The notes under the pieces: model-generated
Seen by the model: the letters and a program-made list of their open reading frames with translations, nothing else
Database searches by the model: none
Told to the model about the DNA's origin: nothing
Program-made: the position numbers and the translations under genes
From: Armatimonadetes bacterium Uphvl-Ar2
Lineage (GTDB): Bacteria > Armatimonadota > Fimbriimonadia > Fimbriimonadales > Fimbriimonadaceae
Assembly: GCA_002162095.1 (NCBI GenBank)
Contig: CP021424.1
Coordinates: forward strand, 1,302,001-1,366,000
Length of the DNA: 64,000 bases
Reading direction: 5' to 3'
In this document: piece after piece, positions 49,530 through 59,750 of the stretch
Layout: every line of letters begins with the position of its first letter
Numbering within the stretch: position 1 is the stretch's first letter

Positions 49530-51683
49530 ATGTGGCAGAGGATTTTCTCTCGCCCGCCCTCTCTCCGGCGGATATTGACCATTCGTGTGAGCCTCCTTCT
49601 GCTCGTCACGCTCGTGGTCATTACCCTCCTGGCCTTTTGGAATGGTCGCGCCACGGTGGCCGATCTTGGGGGGCGCATCGTGCGGCAGACCGCCCAGCAG
49701 GTGGACGACCGTGTGAAGGCTCTGCTGGCCAACGCTGAGGCGCAGGCGAATCTGCTCGCCGGGTTTGCCCAAACGGGACTGGGAGTTCGCACGGCACGGC
49801 TGTCAAGCGGCCAGTTTCCCGAGTTAGGGCGGCAACTCTTTGAAGTGATGCGAGCGAACCCGGAGTTCAGTTCCGCGCGCTACATCGTGGACGCCACGGG
49901 TGAATCCATAAGCGTCATCCGGCGGCCCAATGGCACGCTCGTGATGCAACGCTCCGACCGCACGGGCTGGCAGACCAGCACGTACCGCCGCCAGGATCTG
50001 GTGCCCTTTGGGGACGAAATGCGGGTGATTTTCGAAGACCCGGAGGCCACCTTTGACCCGCGCCGAACTTTGGTCTACGAAGAAGTCCGCGCGCAAAAGC
50101 GGAGCGTGTGGGGTGGCACTGACCTGCTGAAAGGGACAGTGGACGTGACCACGGTGGGCATCAGCTATGCCGTGCCGCTCTACGACAACCGCCAAAACAT
50201 GGTGGGCGTGGTGATGGTGGATCTGAGTGTGGGCGAACTGAGTCGCTACATCAGTCGCATCCGGGTGGCGCAGAACGGCTACGCCTTCTTGGTGGAGCAA
50301 CGAGGGCGACAAGAGGCCCGCATCGTGGCCTATCCCAACTTGGACCGACTCCTCACCACGGAGCAAGGCTTGGAACGCCTCGCGACCCTGGATGAGCTGC
50401 AGGACGAACTGGTGACCAAAAGCCTGGACTTGCTGCTGGTGGCGGCACGCCAAGAACCAGGGACGGTGGCGAGCGGATCGGTGCGGCGCAACGGCGTCAG
50501 CCACTTGGTGGGGTTGGTTTCGGCGAGCGGGGCCGGGCCCCCATGGACGATCGGGGTGGTCGTACCAGAGGACGACTTTATGTCGGGTGTGCAGCGCACC
50601 ACCAGCTTTGTCCTCGGTCTGGGTTTGGTGGCCCTGGCGATGGGGGTGGTGCTGACGTTCTGGTTTGCCCGGCGCCTGAGCCGACCCCTCGGCAACTTGG
50701 TGACCGAAACCGAACGGGTGCGAAAACTCGACCTGGCCCCGCGCCTGACGGAACCCGTGGGAGTGCGAGAGATTGACGCCTTGGCCGTCAGCGTGGAGCA
50801 GATGAAGACGGGGTTGCGCTCGTTTGAGAAGCTCGTGCCCTCGGATTACGCCCGTCACCTCATGAGTTCGGGGCAGGAGGCCAAGCTGGGGGGCGAGCGC
50901 CGGTGGATTGCCACGTCATTTGCCGACATCATCGGGTTCACCGCACTGAGCGAACGGCTGCCAGCGGAAGAATTAGTTAAGGTTCTGGCCGAGTACCTGG
51001 ACATGCTGAGTGACGAAGTGATTCAACGCCAGGGGACGGTGGACAAGTTCAATGGGGATGATGTGATGGCCTTTTGGGGGGCTCCCAAGGCCGTGGCGCA
51101 CCCCGGGCAACTCGCATGTGAGGCAGCCCTGGCCGGGCGGGCCGTGATCTTGGCCATGCACCCCGAGTGGCGGCGGCAGGGGCGGCCGGCGCTAAGGGCG
51201 TCGTTCGGCATCGCCACGGGCGATGTGATTGTGGGCAACATCGGCAGCCGGGAGCGGATGCAGTACACCGTCATTGGCGACGCGGTGAACCTGGCCAGCC
51301 GCCTGCAGGGCCTGAACAAGGCGTACCAAACCGAAATCCTGATTGATGTGAACACCGCCAAAGAAGCGGGGCCGGAGTACCTCACGCGGTGCGTGGACTA
51401 CGTGGCGGTGGCGGGGCGAGAGGAGCCGATAGAACTCCGCGAGCTGCTGGGCCGCCGGGATGACCTGGATGCGGCGGCGATTATGGCCGTGCGCGGCTAC
51501 GAGCAGGGGCTCCAGTTGTACCGAGATCGCAAGTTTGCCGAGGCGGTGGACTGCCTGAGCGAAACGTTGAAGTTGTGGCCAGACGACGGCCCTTCGCGGG
51601 TGCTGCGCGCTCGTGCCCAGGATTACATGACCGCCCCGCCGCCAGAAGATTGGGATGCGGTGACGCGGTTTTCGGTGAAGTGA
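49530..51683 (+). CDS. Class III adenylyl cyclase with periplasmic sensor and HAMP
   Basis: A 717-residue membrane enzyme. TM1 is LTIRVSLLLLVTLVVITLLAF; the periplasmic region (~40-345) resembles a Cache-type sensor (VVMVDLSVGELSRYIS, GYAFLVEQRG); TM2 (SFVLGLGLVALAMGVVLTFWF) leads to a HAMP segment and the cyclase domain. Metal aspartates are D466 (FADIIGFT) and D510 (NGDDVMAFWG); adenine selectivity residues K506 and D584 (IGDAVNLASR) and the transition-state N587/R591 are all present, so it should make cAMP. A C-terminal TPR-like tail follows. The ligand of the sensor is not known. Confidence 0.92.
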   Translation: MWQRIFSRPPSLRRILTIRVSLLLLVTLVVITLLAFWNGRATVADLGGRIVRQTAQQVDDRVKALLANAEAQANLLAGFAQTGLGVRTARLSSGQFPELGRQLFEVMRANPEFSSARYIVDATGESISVIRRPNGTLVMQRSDRTGWQTSTYRRQDLVPFGDEMRVIFEDPEATFDPRRTLVYEEVRAQKRSVWGGTDLLKGTVDVTTVGISYAVPLYDNRQNMVGVVMVDLSVGELSRYISRIRVAQNGYAFLVEQRGRQEARIVAYPNLDRLLTTEQGLERLATLDELQDELVTKSLDLLLVAARQEPGTVASGSVRRNGVSHLVGLVSASGAGPPWTIGVVVPEDDFMSGVQRTTSFVLGLGLVALAMGVVLTFWFARRLSRPLGNLVTETERVRKLDLAPRLTEPVGVREIDALAVSVEQMKTGLRSFEKLVPSDYARHLMSSGQEAKLGGERRWIATSFADIIGFTALSERLPAEELVKVLAEYLDMLSDEVIQRQGTVDKFNGDDVMAFWGAPKAVAHPGQLACEAALAGRAVILAMHPEWRRQGRPALRASFGIATGDVIVGNIGSRERMQYTVIGDAVNLASRLQGLNKAYQTEILIDVNTAKEAGPEYLTRCVDYVAVAGREEPIELRELLGRRDDLDAAAIMAVRGYEQGLQLYRDRKFAEAVDCLSETLKLWPDDGPSRVLRARAQDYMTAPPPEDWDAVTRFSVK

Positions 51684-51706: not shown

Positions 51707-52864
51707 ATGAACGGTCCCCTCGCGCGGATTTCTCGAATCACGGACGCTCGCACGCGCCGCATCAGTAGTTACGATCGCACCGGCGCCAACATGGACTGCG
51801 TCACCGTGCCCCCGGGGGGCACCCGCGTGGTGGCGGAGATCGCGGGCAGTGGGTGCATCACCCACATGTGGTTTACGATGTGGAGCGAGGTGGACGCTCT
51901 GATCCGCTCGCATTGTTTGTTGCGCATCTATTGGGACGGGGCGGATGAGCCGAGCGTGGAAGCGCCCATCGGGGAGTTATTTGGCAATGCTTGGGGCGAG
52001 AACTATCTGTTTTCTAGTCTGCCTTTGGTGTGCGGCCCCCGCGATGGCCGCGCGATGACGAGCTACTGGCCGATGGCCTTCCGCCAGGGGGCGCGGGTGG
52101 AAGTGGTGAACCAGAGCGAGTCCACGCTGGACCGGCTCTACTTCTATGTGGACTACGAAGAGCGCGAAGTGGCGGCGGACGAGGGTTATTTCCACGCGCA
52201 GTATCGCCAGGAGCTGACGAACAGCCACGCCCCCGACGGCGAAGGCGACGCGATGCCACCCGTCATCCCCAACCAGAGCGATGCGGGCAACTATGTGTTC
52301 CTCGATGCGGCGGGGCAGGGCCACTACGTGGGGGTGAACCTCTACGTTGAGAGCCCGACACCGCTTTGGTACGGAGAAGGGGACGATATGTTCCGGATTG
52401 ACGGCGAGGAGTACCCGTATAGCCTGCACGGTACGGGCACGGAGGATTACTTCAACACGGCGTGGAGCCCGGAATACGAGTTCCAGCACCCCTACTTTGG
52501 ATTGGCGCGGGTGCCGGGGAGGGAGCCGGGGCTGGCAGATGGCTGGACCAAGCGTGACTACCACTTTTGGTGGCTGGGCCGGACGCATTGCTACCGTTTC
52601 CACATGGAGGATCCGGTGCGGTTCCGCTCCAGCCTGCGGGCGAGCCTGGAACACGGCCACGCCAACACGCTCAGCTTGATGCTGCGCAGCGTGGCGTATT
52701 GGTATCAGTCGGCGCCGGTCGCTGCGGGGTCGGTGATCCCACCGGTGGCCGAACGGCAACCCATGCCCCCGATCATTGACCAAGACATCCACCACTGGCG
52801 CGATACCTGGATGAAGCAGAACCCCGGTGACGCCTGGGGCAACAATTGGCGGACTAAATCCTGA
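51707..52864 (+). CDS. GH172/DUF2961-type glycoside hydrolase-like protein
   Basis: A 385-residue protein of the DUF2961 family, whose members include difructose-dianhydride synthase/hydrolases and other exo-acting furanosidases (GH172). The signature HGTGTEDYFNTAWSPEYEF (Glu246 in GTGTEDYF), the jelly-roll segment VPPGGTRVVAEIAGSGCITHMW and SSYDRTGANMDCV are present. The protein lacks a clear signal peptide and has its catalytic acidic residues near the middle. Substrate is not predictable: arabinofuranosides and fructans are candidates. A short gap separates it from the cyclase gene upstream and from the thioesterase downstream. Confidence 0.88.
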   Translation: MNGPLARISRITDARTRRISSYDRTGANMDCVTVPPGGTRVVAEIAGSGCITHMWFTMWSEVDALIRSHCLLRIYWDGADEPSVEAPIGELFGNAWGENYLFSSLPLVCGPRDGRAMTSYWPMAFRQGARVEVVNQSESTLDRLYFYVDYEEREVAADEGYFHAQYRQELTNSHAPDGEGDAMPPVIPNQSDAGNYVFLDAAGQGHYVGVNLYVESPTPLWYGEGDDMFRIDGEEYPYSLHGTGTEDYFNTAWSPEYEFQHPYFGLARVPGREPGLADGWTKRDYHFWWLGRTHCYRFHMEDPVRFRSSLRASLEHGHANTLSLMLRSVAYWYQSAPVAAGSVIPPVAERQPMPPIIDQDIHHWRDTWMKQNPGDAWGNNWRTKS

Positions 52865-53411: not shown

Positions 53412-54038
53412 ATGGACCCCTTGCGGCCGACCCCCGGAGTGATCCGGAATGATGTGAATCTGAACCCGAGCGCGAGCCAAGCGGCGCGTAGCGGGGCGGC
53501 ACGTCCGGTCGTCCGTGCAGCGGCGGAAGCCGTGCAGCGCATGGAGCAGGCCCGTCCGAACGAGGGCACTCAACCTTCGGCCCGCATCGTGGCGGCCCAG
53601 CGACTGGTGGTCCAAATGACCGACCTCGTGGCCGGAGTCCGCGAAGGCCTGGAGGCCAACGCCACCCGCACCACAGACCTGAAGGCCGACGAGCGATTGC
53701 TGCAGAGCGCCTACGCCACCGCCCTGGACCTGATTGAAAACACCCGCGCCGACGGTGAGCCGGTGGTCCGACTGGAATCCAGTGGCCCGGCCGTGCAGAA
53801 CGCCGCGAATGTCTACGGCATGGTGAAGGGGGACAGTGAGAGTCCGCTCATCCGCCGCCTCGGCACTTTGCTTACCGGACCGGACGGGGTCGTTCCCACT
53901 CTGGATGCCCTGCGGCAGGACGAGATCGTCTCCGCCGATGAAACCCAGGCCCGCTTGGTGCGCCTGGAAATGCGGCTGGAAGCCCTGCGCGAACCCCTGG
54001 CCCGAGCTGGCCAACCGGGGCTGGATCTCAGCGCTTAA
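53412..54038 (+). CDS. Helical protein of unknown function
   Basis: A 208-residue protein, charged and strongly helical from about residue 30 on (ARIVAAQRLVVQMTDLVAGVREGLEANATR), with a low-complexity start (NLNPSASQAARSGAARP) and a final helix QARLVRLEMRLEALREPLARAG. No catalytic motif, signal peptide or membrane segment is visible. It may form a coiled coil. Its stop overlaps the stop of the convergent MFS-HEAT gene by four bases. No homologous family is recognised. Confidence 0.55.
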   Translation: MDPLRPTPGVIRNDVNLNPSASQAARSGAARPVVRAAAEAVQRMEQARPNEGTQPSARIVAAQRLVVQMTDLVAGVREGLEANATRTTDLKADERLLQSAYATALDLIENTRADGEPVVRLESSGPAVQNAANVYGMVKGDSESPLIRRLGTLLTGPDGVVPTLDALRQDEIVSADETQARLVRLEMRLEALREPLARAGQPGLDLSA

Positions 54039-56434
54039 TCGAGCTCTTCGCTCAGCGGCTTGCCGGAGTCGCTCTGCGTGGCCCGGACAAAGGCCATCGC
54101 GACCACTAAGAAGGCTTCCTCGACGGACGAATCGCGGAAGCGATGGAGTTCCGGGGAGAGGCGCGTATCGGCCAGGCGATTGATGGCGGCCCGCTCTTGG
54201 CCCTCGCTATAGAGAGCAAAGGCCTCGCGCAGGCGCTGGCTATGGCGCATCACGGGGCGGAGCATGGATTCGATCTCGCGCACCCGGGTGAATTCGGGCG
54301 ACATCATCAAGCGGTAAACCTCGGGCTCGACTTCGAGCAGGCGTGCCGCTCCCAACAGGCTCCGACGTCGGGTGGTTTCATTGGTGCTCTGCGCCGCCAC
54401 CCGGAGAACCGATGGCAGGTCGTCCATTCCCCCGATGCATCCGAGCGCGTAGGCGAGTTCGCTGCTGGTATCGGGTTCGAACCATTCCAGCGCCTGGCGC
54501 ACCTGCGGCGCGAGTTCCGCCAATTGGAGCTCCGCAATGGCCTCGGCGGCGGCGGTGCGCACGCTGGGGTGCGGGTCGTAGAGCGCTTCGCCAATCGCTT
54601 CGGCGGCCTGGGTGGCCTGCAGGTTGCGCAAGGCCTGAATGGCGGCGCGGCGGAGGTCGCTGTCCCCGGTTTCGCGGCTGGCATCCATCAGCGCGGTGAT
54701 GGCGCTGGGGTCGTTAAGCCGGCCGAGGGCGCGGGCGGCCGTCCGGCGCAGGATAGAGCGCGGGTCATCCAAGAACGGCAGCAGCGCGGCCACGCTCTCC
54801 GGGTGGCGGACGGTGCCCAAAGCTTCCAACGTTTCCTCGTCCACCAGCATGGGGTTCTCGCGGATGTGCTGGATGAGGGCCTCGGCGGCGTCGGCATCCC
54901 CAATCTTGGCCAGCGATTCGGCCGCGGCCCGCCGGATGTGTGGGGCCGGGTCACGCAGGGCAGCGGCGAGCTCACCGGTGGCAATGCCAAAGGAGCGGCT
55001 ACCCACCGTGCGGATGGCTTCGGCGCGGGTTTCGGCGGCGGCCCCGGAGGTCAGCTGGCGCAGGGCGCGTGCCCCCTGCGGGCTGAAGCGGCGCAGGTGG
55101 GCGATGGTGCCGGCAATGCTCTTGGAGCCGGGCTCCTGGATCCGCGCCACCCATATGAAACTAAGTGCCCGCATAAAGACGACACTAAGAAAGAGCGTCT
55201 TGTACGCCGTCTCGGCGGGCATGGAGATGCGCAGTCGCTCCATCACCAGGGCGCCCACCAGCGGGGCGATGCCGCCCAGCACCGACTGCAAAGCACTGGC
55301 CATTCCCAGATAGTTGGCGCGGGCCTTGGCATCGGCGATGTTGGTCATCAACCCCATTTGGGTGACGGCGATGCCGTTCCACCCGGCCCCCACAAAGACG
55401 TGACCGAGGATGAGGATGACGGCATTCTCCACCGGCTTACCCGGCACGCAGAACAGCCACATCACCGGCGTGAAGACAATGATGGTGGTGAGCAGGGTGA
55501 GGAGCGGGCGGTTGCCGTAGCGGTCGGCGATGTACCCCCAGAACTTGACCGTGGCCAGGGTGCCGATGGCCGAGCTCACCCCCAGGGCTTGCAGGACGAG
55601 GTAGTCCATCTTCAGCGTTTCGAGCGCGAAGGTGGTGAAGAGGTTGCCCGCAAAGCTCTGCCCGATGACAAAAACAATGAGATAGAAGAGCACGGGGCGG
55701 AAGGCGGCATCCTTCCAGGGCGCGCGCATGCCCCTTATCGTCTCGCGCACGTTGGCGGGCACGGGCTCGGGGCGCGGGATATCCCGCATCTTGTCCAAGA
55801 AGATCTGGCTGATGAGGGCGCAGAGCAAGCCGGCACCGAAGATGAACGCGAAGCCTTCCATCTCGCGGCCCATGCGCTTCATCTGGTCCATGACAATGCC
55901 GCCCAGCATCCCGATGACGGAGCCGACGATGGTGGCGACAAATGTGCGCTGGCTGAAATAGGCCCCGCGCTGGTTGACGGGCAGGAGCTCGGCAATCCAG
56001 TCGCTATAGATAGGGTTGACAAGCTGCACCGAGATGGCGGCCAAGCCGATGCAGGCCGTGAGCACCATGAGCCGCACCTCGTTGGGCCACGGCAAGAAGG
56101 GCAGGATGACCAGCGGAATGTGGAAGATGCGCCACATGAGGCCGCCCGGACGGACAAAGCCCCGGTAGCCCGGATATGCCCGGCCGAGGGTGCCCCCGAT
56201 GATTTGCAAGAGGCCCGCGAGCGCGGGGAGCGCGGCGATGAGGCCGACCCAGCGATCCTGGCCGCCTAGGGCCTTGACGAAGCCAACGAGGAAGGTGCCC
56301 GCGACGAGCGTGACAAAGGAGGTACTGAAGGCAACATCGAGGACTCCGTAACGAAGGGTACGGAGGGCTTCGAGCCGAGTTGGGGCCGTGGGGGCCGTCG
56401 CCACAAGGTCCATTGTGATGAAGCCGCACTTCAT
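54035..56434 (-). CDS. MFS permease fused to a C-terminal HEAT-repeat domain
   Basis: A 799-residue fusion. Residues ~25-430 form a 12-helix MFS-type membrane domain (VAFSTSFVTLVAGTFLVGF, GLIAALPALAGLLQIIGGTL, LILGHVFVGAGWNGIAVTQ, DAKARANYLGMASALQSVLG). From ~450 to ~680 the soluble part has HEAT/PBS-lyase-like repeats: GELAAALRDPAPHIRRAAAESLAKIGD, VAALLPFLDDPRSILRRTAARALGRL, AIGEALYDPHPSVRTAAAEAIAEL. MFS-HEAT fusions are known among nucleotide/ADP-ATP-type carriers of some bacteria, but the membrane part here does not show their motifs. The ATG at 56434 has GGAG six bases before it. Substrate and partner unknown. Confidence 0.85.
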   Translation of the reverse strand: MKCGFITMDLVATAPTAPTRLEALRTLRYGVLDVAFSTSFVTLVAGTFLVGFVKALGGQDRWVGLIAALPALAGLLQIIGGTLGRAYPGYRGFVRPGGLMWRIFHIPLVILPFLPWPNEVRLMVLTACIGLAAISVQLVNPIYSDWIAELLPVNQRGAYFSQRTFVATIVGSVIGMLGGIVMDQMKRMGREMEGFAFIFGAGLLCALISQIFLDKMRDIPRPEPVPANVRETIRGMRAPWKDAAFRPVLFYLIVFVIGQSFAGNLFTTFALETLKMDYLVLQALGVSSAIGTLATVKFWGYIADRYGNRPLLTLLTTIIVFTPVMWLFCVPGKPVENAVILILGHVFVGAGWNGIAVTQMGLMTNIADAKARANYLGMASALQSVLGGIAPLVGALVMERLRISMPAETAYKTLFLSVVFMRALSFIWVARIQEPGSKSIAGTIAHLRRFSPQGARALRQLTSGAAAETRAEAIRTVGSRSFGIATGELAAALRDPAPHIRRAAAESLAKIGDADAAEALIQHIRENPMLVDEETLEALGTVRHPESVAALLPFLDDPRSILRRTAARALGRLNDPSAITALMDASRETGDSDLRRAAIQALRNLQATQAAEAIGEALYDPHPSVRTAAAEAIAELQLAELAPQVRQALEWFEPDTSSELAYALGCIGGMDDLPSVLRVAAQSTNETTRRRSLLGAARLLEVEPEVYRLMMSPEFTRVREIESMLRPVMRHSQRLREAFALYSEGQERAAINRLADTRLSPELHRFRDSSVEEAFLVVAMAFVRATQSDSGKPLSEELD

Positions 56435-56449
56435 CTCGTACTCCGATTT

Positions 56450-56962
56450 ATGTTGACAGGCCTTTTGCTACTGGCAATGCAGACGACAGATTTTCAGCGG
56501 ACCGAATTGCCGGATGGATACGACCGGATCACCTCGGCCACCTACCAGATTGATGTACCGCGCGGGTGGAAGGTGAGCCCCGAGACGAACTTTGGCCAGC
56601 GCAAGGCGTACGGGCCGGAGGGCGGCAACCTGGGCGTGATGACCGCGCCGCCCAGCAACCAAGACTGGGATCAGCTCTATCGCACGGCTCTCTTCTTTGT
56701 TCTGCGTGAGAAGAAGGGCACCGCGAGCCCCTATGAGGTGAAGAAGGTGAAGGTAGCCAACGGTGAGGAACTGGAGGCGTGCGTCTTTGGCGTGAAGAAT
56801 GAGGCGGGCTTTGAGGACCGCCGGTACGTGATGATCAAGCACCCGACCCAGGGCCTGCTGGCGCTTTCGGTCGAAATCCCGAACCGGGAAGTGGCCAAGG
56901 ACTGGGAAAAGCACTTCCAGCGCATGGTCAGCAGCGCCCGATTCCTCGGTTCTTCGCGCTAA
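56450..56962 (+). CDS. Secreted protein, unknown function
   Basis: A 170-residue protein that begins with a very short hydrophobic stretch (MLTGLLLLAMQTTDFQ), probably a signal sequence. The rest is a compact alpha/beta domain (YQIDVPRGWKVSPETNFGQR, EDRRYVMIKHPTQGLLALSVEIP, VAKDWEKHFQRMVSSARFL) with the layout of PsbP/DcrB-like or DUF1795-type lipoprotein folds. No conserved catalytic residue is seen. It diverges from the MFS-HEAT gene, 15 bases apart, and ends before the rRNA leader region. Confidence 0.6.
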   Translation: MLTGLLLLAMQTTDFQRTELPDGYDRITSATYQIDVPRGWKVSPETNFGQRKAYGPEGGNLGVMTAPPSNQDWDQLYRTALFFVLREKKGTASPYEVKKVKVANGEELEACVFGVKNEAGFEDRRYVMIKHPTQGLLALSVEIPNREVAKDWEKHFQRMVSSARFLGSSR

Positions 56963-57414: not shown

Positions 57415-58925
<1,511 letters not shown>

Positions 58926-58993: not shown

Positions 58994-59038
58994 AAACCGG
59001 TATGCAGATTTAGGTCTGTGTGCCGGTTTTCTGTTTTT
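58994..59038 (+). terminator. Terminator of the 16S transcript
   Basis: AAACCGG (58994-59000) pairs with CCGGTTT (59023-59029), with a small inner helix CAGA/TCTG, followed by TCTGTTTTT. It ends the transcript directly after the 16S processing stem. Confidence 0.8.
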
Positions 59039-59578: not shown

Positions 59579-59653
<75 letters not shown>

Positions 59654-59676: not shown

Positions 59677-59750
59677 TGGAGCGGGAGACGGGAATCGAAC
59701 CCGCATCCTCAGCTTGGAAGGCTGGAGCATTACCACTATGCTACTCCCGC
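59677..59750 (-). tRNA. tRNA-Gly (anticodon TCC)
   Basis: GCGGGAG/CTCCCGC acceptor stem, D-stem GCAT/ATGC, anticodon loop CTTCCAA, encoded CCA end. The first pair of the anticodon stem is a C-A mismatch (CCAGC against GCTGA). Confidence 0.92.

Follow-up and report, generated by a model that had tools for sequence, protein, structure and literature searches.

An MFS permease with a HEAT-repeat tail is widely kept in Armatimonadota, and its gene neighbours suggest a link to cyclic-nucleotide signalling

A single gene in which a permease of the Major facilitator superfamily (MFS) runs on into a long tail of HEAT repeats turns out, by sequence comparison, to encode an old and widely kept protein of Armatimonadota, a little-studied phylum. 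The copy described here lies in a 64,000-nucleotide stretch of DNA ('the window' throughout) from a genome that consists of a single contig of 2.63 Mb and whose close relatives are Armatimonadota, mainly Fimbriimonadaceae. Gene order hints at what the tail may do: operon-like links, found in separate lineages, to DarA/PstA, to CdaA-CdaR and to a nucleotide cyclase suggest a connection with second messengers. We favour a regulated transporter with a tail on which proteins of second-messenger systems dock, a tentative reading that we hold as somewhat short of probable.

The fusion gene is one open frame of 799 residues that fills positions 54035–56434 of the minus strand exactly; it starts with ATG, and GGAG can be read by eye just 5′ of this codon. 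Read on the plus strand, the same interval has stops close to both of its ends, and it contains a 708-aa frame (54143–56269) inside the fusion gene. We rejected that frame as a shadow: homology extends over the whole minus frame, and the minus strand is therefore the coding strand. The first-pass annotation had described a permease and HEAT repeats in one frame. Both halves were borne out, with the permease reaching to about residue 431, but the tail comes to about 360 residues (363) and not the 250 given there. A full-chain structure prediction, which it had proposed as a check, folds both halves (AlphaFold2, mean pLDDT 90.7, pTM 0.70), with membrane-half helices to residue 431 followed by 23 helices at residues 440–789; given these scores, the fold of each domain is secure, and the angle between the two is less certain.

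The phylogenetic distribution of the fusion, another check named at first pass, is broad. Of 61 relatives, 59 gave a match to the window protein at E ≤ 0.001 (HEAT-only matches counted in). A profile search matched 107 of the 113 genomes of the class at E ≤ 1e-20, and in 92 of the 113 a single match extends across both halves; the remaining class genomes hold fragments, MFS-only frames (G010, G021), a split gene (G044), HEAT-only hits or no match. G039 and G051 carry two full fusion copies each. The fusion recurs across the phylum, where 231 of 291 genomes give a match at E ≤ 1e-20 (MFS-only and HEAT-only matches counted in), and among 40 further distant loci 28 have both halves and 12 the MFS half only. 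Identity to the window protein falls as low as 23% in A3, and the length of the fusion is near-constant, mostly 750–850 aa. By this wide retention and stable length it is a kept architecture and not a chance fusion. The possibility raised at the outset, that homologues might be both widespread and characterised, holds in its first part within Armatimonadota; as to the second, we found none characterised, and no publication on an MFS–HEAT fusion, in the open-access literature.

Outside the phylum, plasmid records were searched with three query proteins, which matched 6, 20 and 7 records, none covering 80% of the query; each match listed (all but 5 records of the second search) covers the MFS half alone or the HEAT part alone, and this plasmid-only search does not imply that the fusion is confined to Armatimonadota. 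A scan of genome contigs gave 56 loci, all from Armatimonadota or its genera by title except L036, L056 and L060, the last two titled just 'bacterium'. The record of L036 is titled Methanoregulaceae archaeon, and its locus is of Fimbriimonadaceae type with neighbours much like those of L037; it is likely mislabelled or contaminated. The set A2 comprises 50 rows and omits seven of the 56 loci (six fragments and the tail-less L082), A4 holds 47 of these 50 rows, and A1 was made without the partial L018. As a separate observation, G191 has three MFS-only relatives of the membrane half (L237 among them), two of them side by side.

The membrane half (residues 20–431; 55142–56377, minus strand) was delimited by Pfam, AlphaFold2, structure comparison and conserved residues. 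It is, by its profile, an MFS member: MFS_1 matches residues 35–391 with 66.8 bits against a cut-off of 33.4, and all 50 members of A2, scanned singly, match MFS_1, HEAT_2, HEAT_PBS and HEAT (E ≤ 0.01). Matched structurally, the modelled half gives Z values of 29.5 to 35.3 across 50 listed chains, all MFS carriers by title; the fold is that of an MFS carrier with 12 membrane helices, the helix count being taken from this fold match because DSSP divides the half into 19 segments. A search against MFS subfamilies, as the first-pass annotation had advised, matched MFS_1 and no NCBIfam subfamily above cut-off, all listed matches of the window protein and of three distant relatives being far below theirs. 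Its remark that this half does not resemble ADP/ATP carriers agrees with our result: the NTT profile PF03219 is absent from the Pfam matches of the window protein up to E 0.1, and an NTT identity was accordingly ruled out. Four charged residues, D33 in the first helix, R102, R163 and R422, do not vary in any of the 50 rows of A2, and the second half contains GYIADRYGNRP (residues 300–310), which we take to be motif A. As a guess, D33, R102 and R422 would suit proton coupling.

The best structural rows are the nucleoside symporters YegT (Z 35.3; 389 residues aligned, 3.2 Å, 12% identity) and NupG (Z 34.0), followed by SotB (Z 33.0), MCT10 and SPNS2 (Z 32.8). These rows would suit a protein that moves the messenger itself, exporting (or importing) c-di-AMP or some other cyclic nucleotide, with a tail that senses or gates; however, the two symporters stand just ~1 to 2.5 Z above SotB and SPNS2, at 10–13% identity. 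With other MFS families following at 33.0 to 32.8, no substrate can be read from the fold, and an assignment from fold or family was rejected, the Foldseek and VIA rows being nearly tied among many MFS carriers.

The tail (residues 437–799; 54038–55126, minus strand), delimited by Pfam, a model of its own and structure comparison, is 363 residues long and all-helical. Its kinship with HEAT repeats, on which the first description depended, stands: HEAT_2 scores 110.1 bits against a cut-off of 27.7 in three stretches of the window protein, HEAT_PBS, HEAT and HEAT_EZ are likewise above their cut-offs, and residues 437–799 modelled alone give a confident solenoid (AlphaFold2, pLDDT 93.7, pTM 0.89). 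Profiles and model together identify it as a HEAT repeat protein. Its fold is like that of PBS-lyase HEAT repeats and of the alphaReps (alphaRep-7: Z 25.4, 272 residues, 2.5 Å, 25% identity); alphaReps are designed proteins, and no function carries over from them. Within the repeats, conservation is higher in the first helix than in the second, and we claim no binding face because such conservation is confounded with the HEAT consensus. We find it very improbable that the tail is enzyme-like, a PBS lyase relative of CpcE/NblB type: the NCBIfam models CpcE, CpcF and NblB do match it, but far below their equivalog cut-offs (CpcE 49.5 bits vs 330, NblB 39.6 vs 300), as expected of any HEAT_PBS repeat.

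Carriers with such tails have a precedent. HEAT fusions of ADP/ATP-type carriers, which the first-pass annotation had mentioned, do exist: HEAT-tailed NTT nucleotide transporters are documented in the excerpted text of PMC5381601, and in some bacteria, according to the same excerpts, a cyclic-nucleotide-binding domain (cNBD) comes after NTT-HEAT or is part of the same fusion. The likeness lies in a membrane carrier with C-terminal HEAT repeats, together with a cNBD beside or fused to some NTT members. The protein described here differs in that its membrane half matches MFS_1 and not PF03219, and in that no cNBD was seen in it, the candidate partners (DarA, CdaA-CdaR, cyclase) being encoded by separate genes. 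The parallel with NTT-HEAT-cNBD is close, and it suggests that control by cyclic nucleotides may be a recurrent role of HEAT tails in membrane carriers.

A maximum-likelihood tree of the MFS half (a quick search on 116 chosen rows, not all loci) contains a clade of 68 rows (SH-aLRT 99) made up of 66 fusions, including that of the window, and two tail-less proteins, L142 (6067–7383, 439 aa) and L144 (1708–3090, 461 aa). Nested as they are inside the window's family, these two are best read as losses of the HEAT tail, and they amount to natural experiments on the need for it. Such loss would fit an ordinary permease whose tail has some unrelated binding partner or does no more than stabilise or cluster the protein, the gene links being inherited gene order that hitchhiked along within each lineage, an alternative that we consider somewhat unlikely. 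More fusion groups lie outside the 68-row clade. The tree implies at least six changes of fusion state, losses counted; its deep forks are weakly supported, its three outgroup rows do not fall together, and because the deep forks are weak one fusion event is indistinguishable from several.

Among the distant relatives, one group has as the gene adjacent to the fusion darA, encoding the c-di-AMP-binding PII-like protein DarA/PstA (PF06153). It stands directly upstream on the same strand in eight genomes of families f30, f37, f40 and f44 (G251, G246, G213, G214, G216, G215, G275 and G274, with the fusion gene of G274 broken over two contigs). The identity of darA rests on Pfam in five of the eight and on genome search in all eight. 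Each genome has exactly one PF06153 match (E ≤ 1e-6), four of the eight being 72–86% complete, and G213 has only a partial match, next to a run of N. With starts as inferred, the fusion gene begins before the end of darA, the overlap being 4 bases in L204 and in L208 and 8 in L206, and gaps of 76, 123 and 22 bases separate the two genes in L136, L137 and L139, respectively. Seven darA-linked rows form one clade with L141 (support 98; G274, a congener of G275, is not in the tree), and the genome of L141, G116, gave no darA match despite this grouping. In G117 and G119 darA lies on other contigs than the fusion, and no match for it was found in ten sampled fusion-bearing genomes of f36, f41–f43 and f45, nor in G250 (f40). 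Across the class, darA lies no more than 5 kb from the fusion in just seven genomes, all from a single genus and all with darA on the other strand (compared by eye).

A different c-di-AMP locus, cdaA-cdaR-GNAT, which encodes the c-di-AMP synthase pair CdaA-CdaR, is directly upstream of the fusion in every one of the seven f5 and f3 genomes that carry the fusion (G038, G040, G042, G044, G046, G048 and G052), whose rows fall in two neighbouring branches of the tree; DAC, YbbR and Acetyltransf_9 were confirmed by Pfam on example loci. DAC is present in 108 of the 113 class genomes, singly in 106, and among the places listed for these genomes every other DAC that shares a contig with a fusion is more than 46 kb from it. 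In the window's genome, DAC is ~90 kb and CdAMP_rec ~114 kb from the fusion, neither of them linked, and most fusion carriers have neither darA nor cdaA adjacent. A variant locus, L143 (6001–8266; the same as L084), has the fusion gene split into frames of 331 and 393 aa behind cdaA, and cdaA and cdaR joined in one 565-aa frame. The neighbour searches used single query proteins, so that diverged partners may be missed, and the linkage pattern was noticed post hoc among many possible neighbours. For the 12 MFS-only loci, whose flanks extend just ~3–4 kb or less, none of the query neighbours was found.

In the window's clade the neighbouring signalling gene is that of a membrane nucleotide cyclase. 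In the window, a 717-aa dCache-HAMP-class III nucleotide cyclase (49530–51683, plus strand; dCache_1, HAMP and Guanylate_cyc above Pfam cut-offs) lies 2.4 kb from the fusion gene in convergent orientation, an arrangement shared with the sister genome G001. It retains what we take to be the class III residues, and its sequence thus predicts that it is probably active. Strong orthologues (E ≤ 3e-143) occur in 26 of the 113 class genomes, 19 of them no more than 100 bp downstream of the fusion on the same strand. Elsewhere the cyclase is on the same strand across a 1.3 kb gap (G032, G034), 110 kb away (G011), on another small contig (G023) or present with the fusion absent (G005); another six, weaker matches (1e-68 to 1e-90) are at least 97 kb off or on a different contig. 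Among the 56 named loci the cyclase is adjacent in 12, separated by a gap in L077 and convergent in L031, and ten cyclase-linked tree rows form one clade (support 97).

Each lineage's gene link may thus be one evolutionary event, as the hitchhiking alternative would have it, the cyclase-linked and the darA-linked rows forming one clade each and the cdaA-linked rows two neighbouring branches. It gains further from G050 and G054 of f5, where cdaA-cdaR-GNAT is kept and the fusion absent. Set against it are the closeness, or even overlap, of the fusion gene and the sole detected darA across four families with fusion proteins that share just 44–50% identity, and the separate joining of two different c-di-AMP loci. 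The docking model, for its part, has to reckon with links that are lineage-specific and with a window copy that is not beside c-di-AMP genes.

Under this docking model, the protein would be an MFS-fold secondary transporter whose HEAT solenoid serves as a regulatory docking platform. The tail would be cytosolic, because it is placed after the last helix of the MFS fold. The protein that docks on the solenoid would be DarA, either bound to its messenger or free, or some other partner, for instance the cyclase, and it would open or close the permease, much as PII proteins do with other transporters; in the window's lineage the nucleotide cyclase would represent a change of partner. Docking of DarA is proposed because the only detected darA stands in tight operon order with a transporter whose solenoid is of a kind that binds proteins, and the linkage to the synthase in other families lends the model separate support. 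The operon neighbours DarA, CdaA/CdaR and the nucleotide cyclase are accordingly candidate partners. DarA/PstA has been studied in Firmicutes, and the excerpts of those studies mention no MFS-HEAT partner; its targets are stated there to be unknown, as of December 2025 in PMC12802241 and also in PMC7857571 and PMC7900238, and the consulted part of a study of PstA dynamics names no partner (PMC12435418). Proteins of the PII superfamily, to which DarA/PstA belongs, are described in excerpts of PMC12802241 and PMC7857571 as modulating transporters by binding them. The darA-transporter operon order therefore names a directly testable candidate for the DarA/PstA target.

Transport of the messenger by the fusion itself would explain a synthase, a receptor and a cyclase as operon partners, since genes for making cyclic nucleotides and one for reading them are among the neighbours. 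The MFS pumps MdrT and MdrM are reported as c-di-AMP exporters (PMC6108528, in excerpt), and c-di-AMP secretion is said to depend on MDR transporters in the available part of PMC3933815. MdrT and MdrM share with our protein the MFS fold and the c-di-AMP connection and are likened to it here by description only; they differ in that the text seen mentions no HEAT tail. Many carriers, however, have no such gene nearby, and we regard messenger transport as improbable. The broadest reading, in which second messengers act by way of the HEAT docking tail to control an old transporter of Armatimonadota, with MFS-HEAT being the missing kind of DarA/PstA target (and the cyclase the partner in the window's lineage) or itself a cyclic-nucleotide transporter, seems to us rather unlikely.

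Other neighbours do not all lead in the same direction, the recurring RodA/FtsW-type, 2Fe-2S and response-regulator genes not towards cyclic nucleotides, and the c-di-AMP link is weighed with this in mind. A RodA/FtsW-family gene is directly upstream of the fusion in six f12 loci (L121, L125, L126, L173, L174 and L175; Pfam on two), as might be expected of a cell-envelope protein, a flippase or wall-precursor transporter anchored by its tail to the elongation machinery. AmpG and SPNS2 are among the best folds for the membrane half, and c-di-AMP and cell-wall genes are often linked, which would agree with such a role. Yet the RodA/FtsW link is found in one family only and the fold matches are unspecific, and an envelope role appears quite improbable. 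A 2Fe-2S (Fer2) gene is upstream of the fusion in four f10 loci (Pfam on examples), and a single-domain response-regulator gene lies upstream on the other strand in nine (L039, L045, L059, L060, L063, L065, L067, L154 and L155; Pfam on L060 and L154). In L119 (f12) a class III cyclase with an AAA/NB-ARC part is downstream of the fusion.

The window's flanks hold several further features. A divergent 170-aa ORF (56450–56962, plus strand) has no Pfam match, and its relatives lie upstream of the fusion, within ~2.3 kb, in seven of the 56 named loci besides the window. A DUF2961 protein (51707–52864, plus strand) adjoins the cyclase, and 9 to 10 of the other named loci have a relative of it downstream of the fusion. 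The 16S rRNA gene (57415–58924, plus strand) is complete and solitary, with no other rRNA between 53000 and 60500, and rRNA genes may be unlinked in this genome. Past it a coding frame begins at 59020, and two tRNA genes lie nearby on the minus strand (59582–59653 and 59680–59750).
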